A stretch of 64,000 bases of DNA from positions 2,267,001-2,331,000 of the forward strand of contig NZ_CP024920.1 of NCBI RefSeq assembly GCF_002795865.1, in the 5' to 3' direction. The translations under genes were made by a program, and so were the position numbers. Source of the stretch: Qipengyuania seohaensis (GTDB lineage: Bacteria; Pseudomonadota; Alphaproteobacteria; Sphingomonadales; Sphingomonadaceae). Below, in pieces: positions 48,210 to 57,607 of the stretch (position 1 is its first letter; each line of letters begins with the position of its first letter). Under the pieces are notes generated by a model. The model saw nothing but the letters and a program-made list of their open reading frames with translations. It did not search any database and was not told the DNA's origin.

Positions 48210-48236
48210 CGCTGAATCCCCTTTGTGAAAGATTTC

Positions 48237-48253
48237 GCAGTCAGAGTGACTGC
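48237..48253 (-). promoter_or_regulatory. Leader hairpin/inverted repeat GCAGTCA-GAG-TGACTGC
   Basis: Perfect 7-bp arms with a 3-nt centre, between the EcfG-type promoter and the DUF3597 start codon. As RNA it would form a stem at the very 5' end of the transcript. Confidence 0.5.
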
Positions 48254-48263
48254 ACCTTTGTTA

Positions 48264-48288
48264 AACGATAAAGACGTTCGGACGTTCC
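48264..48288 (-). promoter_or_regulatory. EcfG (general stress sigma) promoter GGAAC-N16-CGTT
   Basis: On the minus strand GGAAC (48288-48284) is followed after exactly 16 nt by CGTT (48267-48264), the consensus of the alphaproteobacterial EcfG sigma factor. Transcription would start near 48257, about 48 nt before the DUF3597 ATG. Confidence 0.65.
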
Positions 48289-54594: not shown

Positions 54595-54622
54595 AAAACC
54601 CCGCCGCATTGCTGCGACGGGG
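54595..54622 (-). terminator. Intrinsic terminator of the DJ-1/PfpI gene
   Basis: Minus-strand stem CCCCG-(T)-CGCA / TGCG-(G)-CGGGG with one mismatch and a four-base loop, followed by TTTT (complement of 54595-54598). It lies between the DJ-1 stop and mscS start. Confidence 0.75.
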
Positions 54623-54653
54623 CCATCCTCTCTCCTCGAGAGTGATCTAGCGG

Positions 54654-55211
54654 TTAGGCGCTTTCGAGTTCGCGCTTCTCGGCAGTTTGACCGAGCATTT
54701 CGATCAGCGCCTTGCTGAATGCCGGAATGTCGTCGGGGTTGCGGCTGGTAATGAGGTTGCCATCGACGACGGCTTCCTTGTCGACCACGTTCGCACCTGC
54801 ATTCTTCAGGTCGGTACGGATCGAGGGCCATGCGGTGACCGTCTTGCCCTTGATGAGATCGGCTTCGGCGAGCAGCCACGGTGCGTGGCAGATCGCGGCG
54901 ATCGGCTTGCCCGCCATGTCGAATTCGCGGACGATCGCAATGGCGCGCTCGTTCATACGCAGGATGTCGGGATTCATCTGGCCACCCGGGAGGAGCAGAG
55001 CGTCGTAGCCCGAACAGTCGGAAATCTCGTCGACCGTCTTCTCTACGGCAACGCTGTCGCCCCAATCCTTCTGGTCCCAACCCTTGATTTCGCCCTTTTC
55101 GAGACTCACGACAGTGGTTTCGAAACCGGCGTCTTCCAGATTGGCCATGGGCTTCATCAGCTCCGACTGCTCGAAGCCGTTGGTGGCGAGGATCATGATG
55201 CGCTTTGTCAT
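54654..55211 (-). CDS. DJ-1/PfpI family protein, candidate general-stress gene
   Basis: A 185-residue type 1 glutamine amidotransferase-like protein of the PfpI/YhbO group, linked elsewhere to deglycation and stress survival. The nucleophile elbow is AAICHAPW with the cysteine, and the glutamate appears early in FEQSELMKPM. NPDILRMNERAIAIVREF and SRNPDDIPAFSKALIEML complete the fold. Start at 55211 has AAGGAG within the leader. An EcfG-type promoter (55244-55269) and a leader hairpin sit upstream. Whether it is a protease, deglycase or chaperone is unsettled in the family. Confidence 0.9.
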   Translation of the reverse strand: MTKRIMILATNGFEQSELMKPMANLEDAGFETTVVSLEKGEIKGWDQKDWGDSVAVEKTVDEISDCSGYDALLLPGGQMNPDILRMNERAIAIVREFDMAGKPIAAICHAPWLLAEADLIKGKTVTAWPSIRTDLKNAGANVVDKEAVVDGNLITSRNPDDIPAFSKALIEMLGQTAEKRELESA

Positions 55212-55212
55212 A

Positions 55213-55239
55213 GGGTAACTCCTTGATTTTCTGTTACCC
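55213..55239 (-). promoter_or_regulatory. Leader hairpin over the ribosome binding site of the DJ-1 gene
   Basis: Minus-strand GGGTAAC and GTTACCC form a perfect 7-bp stem around a 13-nt loop. The Shine-Dalgarno AAGGAG lies at the loop end running into the 3' arm, and the ATG follows one base after the stem. Melting or opening would be needed for efficient translation. Confidence 0.55.
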
Positions 55240-55243
55240 ATGC

Positions 55244-55269
55244 AACGTGTGGGGACAGCGCTGTGTTCC
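55244..55269 (-). promoter_or_regulatory. EcfG (general stress sigma) promoter GGAAC-N17-CGTT
   Basis: Minus-strand GGAAC (55269-55265), 17 nt, CGTT (55247-55244), the consensus of alphaproteobacterial EcfG. The start of transcription would fall near 55238, at the first base of the leader hairpin. Confidence 0.65.
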
Positions 55270-55309: not shown

Positions 55310-57607
55310 ATGGCCACTACCGATCTTGATGATTCTGGCGTCGATCCGTTCGACGCGATCGTTGATGCACCTTTCGACTCCGCCCTGTCGGAACGCTATC
55401 TCGTCTACGCGCTGAGCACGATTACCGCACGCTCGCTGCCCGATCTTCGTGACGGGTTGAAGCCGGTCCACCGGCGCCTGCTGTGGACCATGCGCCAGCT
55501 CAAGCTGGACCCATCGAGCGGGTTCAAGAAGTCCGCCCGCGTGGTCGGCGAAGTCATCGGTAAGTACCACCCGCACGGCGACACGGCCGCTTATGATGCG
55601 ATGGTCCGTCTCGCCCAGGATTTCGCGCTGCGCTATCCGCTCGTCGAAGGGCAGGGCAACTTCGGCAATATCGATGGCGATAACGCTGCCGCATATCGCT
55701 ACACCGAAGCGCGCCTGACCAAGACCGCGATGCGCCTGATGGAGGGGCTGGACGCGGGCACGGTCGACTTCATCCCGACCTACAATAACGAGGAAGAAGA
55801 ACCGGAAATCATGCCGGGTCTCTTCCCCAACCTGCTCGCCAACGGCGCGAGCGGGATCGCGGTGGGCATGGCGACCAATATCCCCTCGCATAACGTCGCC
55901 GAGATCGTCGATGCGACGCTGGAGGTGATCGACAATCCCCATGTCGAACACCCGCGCCTGATGGAGTTGTTCAAGGGGCCGGACTTCGCCACGGGCGGGG
56001 TCGTTCCCGAAAGCGCGGATACGATCAGCCATGCCTATGAAACGGGACGCGGGTCGTTCCGCGTGCGTGGGCGCTTCCATGCGGAAGAGGCGGAGAAGGC
56101 CGAAGATCGCGAAGCGGGGATCGAGCGGCTGGGCGGCGGCCAGTGGCAACTGGTCATTTCCGAAATTCCCTACCAGGTCGCGAAGGGCAAGCTAATTGAG
56201 CAGATCGCACAAGCGATTGCCGACAAGAAGCTGCCGATCCTGGAGGACGTGCGCGACGAAAGCGACGAGTCCATCCGCATCGTGCTCGTGCCGCGCAGCC
56301 GCAATGTCGATCCCGAGCTGCTCAAGGAGAGCATCTACAAGCTCACCGACATGGAAACGCGTTTCGGCCTCAACCTCAATGTGCTGAATGCCAGCCGCAC
56401 GCCGATGGTCATGGGGCTGAAGGAACTGCTCGAAAATTGGATCGCCAGCCAGATCGACATCCTCCAGCGCCGCAGCCGCCACCGGCTCGAACAGATCGCC
56501 AAGCGGCTGGAGCTGGTCGAAGGCTATATCATCGCCTTCCTCAACCTCGACCGCGTTATCGAGATCATCCGGACGGAGGACGAGCCGAAGCCGGTCATGA
56601 TGGAGGAATTCAAGCTTACCGACCGGCAGGCCGAAGCGATCCTCAACATGCGCCTGCGGTCCTTGCGCAAGCTGGAGGAAATGCAGCTTCGCAATGAGAA
56701 GGACGAGTTGCTGAAAGAACAGGACGAGCTTGAGAAACTGCTTGGCTCCCCGGCTCGCCAGCGCACGCGCCTGAAGCGCGATCTCAATGCGCTGCGCAAG
56801 GAATACGGACCTGACACCGATCTGGGCCGCCGCCGCACGACGATCGAAGAGGCGGCACCAGCAGTCGAATTCAGCATGGACGCGATGATCGAGAAAGAGC
56901 CGGTCACCGTGATCCTGTCGCAGAAGGGCTGGGTACGCGGTGCCAAGGGCCACCTGCCGCTGGACCAGGAATTCAAATACAAGGAAGGCGACGCTCCGGC
57001 CTTTGTCCTGCACGCGCAAACGACCGACAAGCTACTGCTGGTCGGTGCCGACGGCCGTGTCTTCACGCTCGGGGCCGACAAACTGCCGGGTGCGCGCGGG
57101 TTCGGTGAACCGGTCCGCAATACGCTCGACATCGAGACGAGTACCCAGATCGCGGCCGTAATCGTCCATCGCGAAGGGCAGGAAGTCCTGCTCGCCGCAG
57201 ATACCGGCAAGGGTTTTGCCGCAACCACCGACGCCATGCTCGCCGAAACGCGAAAGGGCCGCCAGGTCGTCAATCTGAAGGGCGATGCGAAGCTGGTCGT
57301 TGCGCGGGCTATCGAGCAAGGGCACGACCACGTCGCCGTCGTCGGCGACAACCGCAAGCTGGTGGTTTTCAACCTCGAGGAATTGCCGCGCCTCGCAAAG
57401 GGCCAGGGCGTGAAGCTGCAAAGCTATCGCGATGGTGGCCTGTCGGATGCGACCACGTTCAAGCTGGAAGAGGGGCTCAGCTGGACGATGGGCGGCAAGG
57501 GCGACCGGACCCGTACCGAAGGCGACATGTGGCAGTGGAAGGTTGCGCGTGGCGGTGCAGGCCGCCTCCCGCCGCAAGGCTTCCCGCGCGACAACCGGTT
57601 CGGATAG
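55310..57607 (+). CDS. parC: DNA topoisomerase IV subunit A
   Basis: Type IIA topoisomerase subunit that decatenates daughter chromosomes. The 765-residue protein has the winged-helix/tower start [28 protein letters not shown]-type block (in part [17 protein letters not shown]), the quinolone pocket [12 protein letters not shown] with Thr92 and Asp96, the catalytic tyrosine Y131 (YRYTEARL), and a C-terminal beta-pinwheel shorter than in GyrA with no GyrA box visible, which supports ParC. ATG at 55310 has GGGCAGGGC upstream. parE is not in the window. Confidence 0.95.

Follow-up and report, generated by a model that had tools for sequence, protein, structure and literature searches.

The PhyR-NepR mechanism is established in other species, and relatives of DJ-1/PfpI found elsewhere, such as YhbO and YfkM, are under the control of stress sigma factors. 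A study of EcfG in Erythrobacter has reportedly been published. At the level of RNA, thermometers of the fourU and ROSE types place a hairpin close to the start codon of a stress gene. Among sphingomonads, the EcfG promoters described in Sphingopyxis granuli TFA and Sphingomonas melonis Fr1 have the form GGAAC-N16/17-CGTT, with CATT variants (PMC7083833, PMC6599016). In S. granuli TFA the nepR-ecfG pair is reported to lie behind its own GGAAC-type promoter (PMC7083833), and for S. melonis Fr1 DUF3597 is tabulated among the EcfG-regulated genes, with a motif score of 7.8, below that paper's cut-off of 10 (PMC6599016). The words PfpI and DJ-1 are absent from the main texts of these two papers, supplements aside, and a literature search for EcfG together with PfpI found none. 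The DJ-1/PfpI promoter that we describe here has the same general form and is a sound new addition to the EcfG-type promoters.

The gene lies in a stretch of 64 kb that was analysed as a whole (the window hereafter), which is part of the 2.94 Mb single-contig genome of a marine bacterium whose nearest named relatives are Qipengyuania and Erythrobacter. It occupies 54654..55211 on the minus strand and encodes a protein of 185 aa. Profile scores assign this protein to the DJ-1/PfpI/YhbO deglycase-protease family, with a match to PF01965 at 2.1e-53 and 182.9 bits against TIGR01382 (cut-off 139.05), whereas it scores below the equivalog cut-off of the NCBIfam-type profile for deglycase PfpI. The solved structures nearest to it include PfpI, protease I and YhbO. 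Divergent from it is a gene that we name parC here (topoisomerase IV/gyrase A-type; 55310..57607, plus strand; PF00521, 1.8e-139). Past the DJ-1 stop, a GC-rich inverted repeat followed by T-rich sequence was read by eye at about 54599-54623 of the window (minus strand), and a scan near the stop lists a weaker site at 54602-54590; the repeat and the T-rich sequence suggest that the transcript may carry this single gene. A second DJ-1/PfpI paralogue with 44% identity is seen elsewhere in the genome (G000:C1:2122572-2123075, plus strand). Another GGAAC-N17-CGTT site (2121510) is found some 1 kb upstream of this paralogue, and a different reading frame (L276) begins right after that motif.

Upstream of the DJ-1/PfpI gene, the minus strand carries GGAAC-N17-CGTT at 55269-55244, just as the earlier note had read it, with GGAAC as the -35 element (55265..55269) and CGTT as the -10 element (55244..55247). 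The tetranucleotide GCAT separates CGTT from the GGGTAAC with which the leader hairpin begins. The GGAAC -35 element, the CGTT-like -10 element, the gap of 16-17 nt and the short distance to the start codon are together those of an EcfG-type promoter. Occurrences of the motif as such are no evidence, since the window has two copies of GGAAC-N16-18-CGTT where 1.63 would be expected, and the whole genome has 57, fewer than the 146 of a reversed control pattern. With no excess over chance at either scale, the motif count was rejected as promoter evidence; motif frequency is a non-defining test for a single promoter, and the case for this one rests on conservation.

We searched 60 genomes of the genus and obtained a match to the gene at E 1e-60 or better in 54, all of whose leaders were read; G013 and G029 contain just end pieces of the gene and are not part of the leader set. 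Under a relaxed pattern, which alone recovered the three leaders without GGAAC, the spacing is 17 in all 54. The -35 element is an exact GGAAC in 51, GGGAG in two and GGATC in one, and the -10 element reads CGTT in 42, CATT in 7 and CGTA in 5. Relative column rates are 0.08 for the -35 element (mean over 52 leaders) and 0.84 for the -10 element, against 5.83 for spacer positions +5..+13. In a wider set, 54 of 80 loci were read, and 48 remain once six copies of genus leaders (L082, L084, L086-L089) are taken out. The promoter is present in 43 of these 48, namely in 42 that were parsed, with a spacing of 17 in 35 and 16 in 7, and in L099, which was counted by eye. No promoter was detected by pattern in L091, L113, L123 and L124; L099 and L132 gave no Shine-Dalgarno, and inspection of L132 by eye showed no promoter. 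The 26 loci L055-L080 were left out as genus copies; 25 of them are copies and L068 is not. This last leader, which stands outside all counts, has by eye the promoter and no full stem.

The genome also encodes NepR (match at 1.3e-16), directly followed by an EcfG-like sigma gene with the domains PF04542, PF08281 and PF22029, and a GGAAC-N16-CGTT starts 189 bp ahead of the NepR match, the same layout as in S. granuli TFA. No EcfG-specific model exceeded its cut-off for this sigma gene, which we call EcfG because of its position beside nepR and its domains. The conservation of the leaders, along with the nepR-ecfG pair, gives strong support to the proposal that the DJ-1/PfpI gene carries a stress-sigma promoter of the EcfG type, and, as judged by sequence comparison, one that is conserved across the genus.

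What sets this promoter apart from its counterparts in S. granuli TFA and S. melonis Fr1 is a conserved TCCCC block in the spacer (55251..55255, minus strand), with 81-96% conservation per column in the 54 genus leaders and 86-100% in the 35 others with a spacing of 17. The composite pattern GGAAC-N7..11-TCCCC-N2..4-CRTT has a single occurrence in the genome, which is the DJ-1 promoter. In a slightly longer form, TGTCCCC (window 55251-55257, minus strand), the block is often CTTTCCCC in relatives and keeps its register within the genus and beyond. It is possibly the site of a second regulator, or it may act through an effect on the spacer.

The leader itself contains, as described in the earlier note, a 7-bp stem with a 13-nt loop that spans 55239-55213 on the minus strand and ends one base short of the ATG. 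Its 5' arm, GGGTAAC (55233..55239), lies near the predicted transcript start, and its 3' arm, GTTACCC (55213..55219), lies between the Shine-Dalgarno and the ATG, with T at 55212 followed by the ATG at 55211-55209. The description of this hairpin as one that holds the Shine-Dalgarno, AAGGAG (55219..55224), stands in so far as AAGGA, five of the six bases, lies within the loop AGAAAATCAAGGA (55220..55232), but these five bases are predicted to be unpaired and the stem takes in only the last G. For the 32-nt leader including the ATG the fold energy is -9.1 kcal/mol and z is -2.5, a fold matched in 4 of 200 dinucleotide shuffles; lengthening the segment by roughly 20 or 30 nt of coding sequence brings z to -1.8 or -0.5, respectively. 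Given this range of -0.5 to -2.5 by segment, folding of the single leader was set aside as evidence for the stem. A Watson-Crick stem of at least 7 pairs arose in 32 of 20000 mononucleotide shuffles of the 28-nt leader; such a stem is unlikely by chance for one leader, and less so as the best of many leaders in a 64-kb window. The predicted stem also depends on the start site, its probability being 0.51 at 30 C for a transcript that starts 2 nt further in than 55239.

Among the relatives, 17 of the 54 genus leaders (31%) have a stem of 6 bp or more in register, as against 0.5% of shuffles, and an uninterrupted stem of this kind is missing from the other 37. Intact stems are clustered on the tree of these genomes, requiring 8 changes versus a mean of 14.7 for shuffled labels; several branches of this tree are weak, and L040 is placed differently in the two trees that were built. 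A constrained energy of -4 kcal/mol or lower is reached by 24 of the 54 genus leaders, in some of which the stem is interrupted or out of register, and by 1 of the 38 other scored leaders; no stem score was given to L103, L107, L111 and L130, where the Shine-Dalgarno or ATG was parsed wrongly. Fold z averages -0.90 for genus leaders and -0.15 for those outside, and the lowest genus values come mostly from stem-bearing leaders. Column rates average 2.15 in the 5' arm, and the 3' arm evolves about as fast as the free promoter spacer (5.38 without the Shine-Dalgarno G versus 5.83).

Covariation in relatives, by which the earlier note had proposed to judge the stem, does not bear it out. RNAalifold returned no pairs and no consensus fold for the 47 distinct genus leaders, in which 68.6% of the stem cells pair and pair 4 (T-A) is unpaired in 27. 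When the alignment was shuffled, three of five measures proved high, with equally high values in 8 of 500 shuffles for cells paired, 20 of 500 for changes on both sides and 21 of 500 for the covariation score, and there was no excess in the number of pairs with a double change (295 of 500 as high) or in pair types (429 of 500). A swap test preferred own partners at nearly every distance cut (-3.54 kcal/mol, as against -2.4 with the arm of a distant genome; median permutation p 0/500), with p 0.016 for about nine very distant genus representatives and 0 for about 20 drawn from the wider set of 66. Since this test also scores high when the two arms have eroded together in diverged genomes, we added a tree-based simulation and non-pairing control windows, which took away much, though not all, of the signal. 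Under independent evolution on the tree (L053 and L054 being left out of these simulations and of alignment A1), the 52 genus leaders gave P 0.12 for double-changed cells, 0.29 for pairs per leader, 0.14 for pair types and 0.09 for five contiguous pairs; with 10 leaders added, the corresponding values were 0.18, 0.07, 0.09 and 0.02. Seven contiguous pairs exceed this null clearly (0.29 versus 0.06, P 0.001; P 0.0005 in the wider set). Joint conservation with the 3' arm likewise exceeded the null (P at or below 0.05) in 41 of 54 non-pairing windows, or 33 of 54 under a stricter criterion, so that much of the association between the arms reflects conservation of the whole leader in close relatives.

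One reading of the hairpin, put forward in the earlier note, is that of an RNA thermometer or ligand switch, whose stem would occlude the ribosome site and open with heat or binding, thereby adding a second level of control to EcfG. The stem is real and sits between the Shine-Dalgarno and the AUG, the swap test and the excess of 7-bp stems are positive, and the leader in the window has a second, weak helix between the AUG and coding sequence that loosens by degrees on warming (probability of an unpaired AUG 0.08 at 30 C and 0.35 at 45 C). However, this helix is able to form in just 13 of the 54 genus leaders, and 37 of the 54 lack the in-register stem; there is no consensus fold, and Rfam 15 at gathering threshold reports two tRNAs only in the window, with no match at the leader. 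Furthermore, ViennaRNA gives the stem a probability of 1.00 between 4 and 45 C that is still 0.97 at 60 C. For AAGGA the predicted unpaired probability never drops below 0.94 between 4 and 70 C, and within the Shine-Dalgarno the last G alone is paired. A stem predicted to be closed from 4 to 60 C, beside a Shine-Dalgarno core that stays unpaired, is the opposite of a thermometer, and with AAGGA predicted to be open in the loop the idea of an occluded ribosome site giving two-level control loses its footing. Unlike the fourU and ROSE-type elements, this hairpin has the core in its loop and a perfect stem of excessive stability, and there is no conservation of marginal pairing. The DJ-1 leader hairpin is probably no temperature switch, and we give next to no credence to regulated opening of the stem in general.

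A second explanation is a hairpin at the 5' end that makes the mRNA more stable or has a constitutive tuning effect on initiation, and that is selected in some lineages only (L001-L004, L010/L012/L015/L018, L013/L019, L026-L028, L040, L041, L046 and L052). The clustering of intact stems on the tree points in this direction, as does L040, which keeps seven pairs in a different sequence, with three of them changed on both sides; L010 and L030 also have double changes that keep single pairs. The association between intact 5' and 3' arms (phi 0.53) is above that in all 54 control windows, but narrowly (0.51 at most), and double-changed cells remain within the independent null. The excess over that null in most of the non-pairing windows also counts against such selection, and where C occupies the fourth 5' position, as in 22 genus leaders, G is opposite in just 2. 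On balance, we regard constitutive selection of this type as unlikely. Its more ambitious extension, that in the lineages keeping the hairpin a loop-presented Shine-Dalgarno or a protected 5' end is selected as a post-transcriptional layer on EcfG control, with replacement of the whole stem in L040 and loss elsewhere, and that together with the TCCCC block this would make DJ-1 a multi-input stress gene, appears distinctly improbable. The arms might alternatively function at the level of DNA, with GGGTAAC-N13-GTTACCC, immediately past the start, as the operator to which a regulator would bind. Their centres are 20 bp apart, which fits one face of the helix, and the 13-nt loop length is constant in intact copies except L040; yet the arms are eroded separately in many genomes, and a genome count of GTAAC-N12..16-GTTAC gives 4 sites as opposed to 12 for the reversed control, which makes an operator very improbable.

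The other motif-bearing gene in the window encodes DUF3597 (PF12200, 6.5e-35) and has an EcfG-type promoter, GGAAC-N16-CGTT, at 48264..48288 (minus strand), with a leader of about 50 nt. The earlier note ascribed to it the same plan as DJ-1, but its anatomy is different: soon after the predicted start, a stable hairpin (48236..48254, minus strand) lies upstream of the Shine-Dalgarno. The 38-nt stretch ahead of the Shine-Dalgarno has a fold z of -3.2, as opposed to -0.1 for the 73-nt fold, in which a weak second helix does touch the Shine-Dalgarno. Fifty genus loci (L195-L244) were sought, yielding starts in 48 and an anchored leader in 43 (31 long, 12 short), with L211-L213 anchored by hand on AGTT. 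In the 31 long leaders z for the stretch ahead of the Shine-Dalgarno is always negative (mean -1.57; below -1 in 23; p < 0.05 in 12), these statistics ignoring kinship. A hairpin of 5-8 bp recurs with varying stem letters, such as GCAGTC/GACTGC, GCGGC/GCCGC, GCGAC/GTCGC and others, and the predicted fold differs among the long leaders. Outside the genus, the motif was found by pattern in 7 of 28 loci, with mixed folds. Compared with the DJ-1 stem, this hairpin is the stronger candidate for a genuine RNA element.

A general rule of a hairpin at the Shine-Dalgarno of EcfG-motif leaders was also considered and rejected, the mean z being -0.21 over the 17 leaders that remained after filtering from 45 of the 57 genome sites. 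Separately, another EcfG-motif leader, L164 (G000:C1:1716116-1716141, plus strand), folds TGCAAAGGAGATTTTGCA over its Shine-Dalgarno and start with a z of -3.4.

Taken together, we hold it to be very probable that the DJ-1/PfpI gene belongs to the general stress regulon, with transcriptional control by EcfG and a stem that is an eroding inherited feature, neither thermometer nor switch. In this proposed scheme, PhyR would draw NepR off the sigma factor EcfG, and RNA polymerase with EcfG would read GGAAC-N17-CGTT upstream of the gene, giving a leader some 27 nt long whose Shine-Dalgarno site is open, so that the regulation of DJ-1 would be transcriptional. The 7-bp stem, which is real in the window, would be an inherited part of the initially transcribed sequence and of the segment from the Shine-Dalgarno to the ATG. 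We infer that the stem probably dates back to an ancestor inside the genus and has since decayed in many of the lineages; in those that retain it, it may slightly adjust how translation begins or shield the 5' end. Most likely, its role is at most a minor one.

Orthologous leaders offer a way to test a striking hairpin at a ribosome site, and in this instance they allowed it to be largely set aside; the same work points to the DUF3597 leader hairpin as a better RNA candidate nearby. For the organism and many related bacteria, conservation alone assigns a DJ-1/PfpI protein to the general stress regulon.
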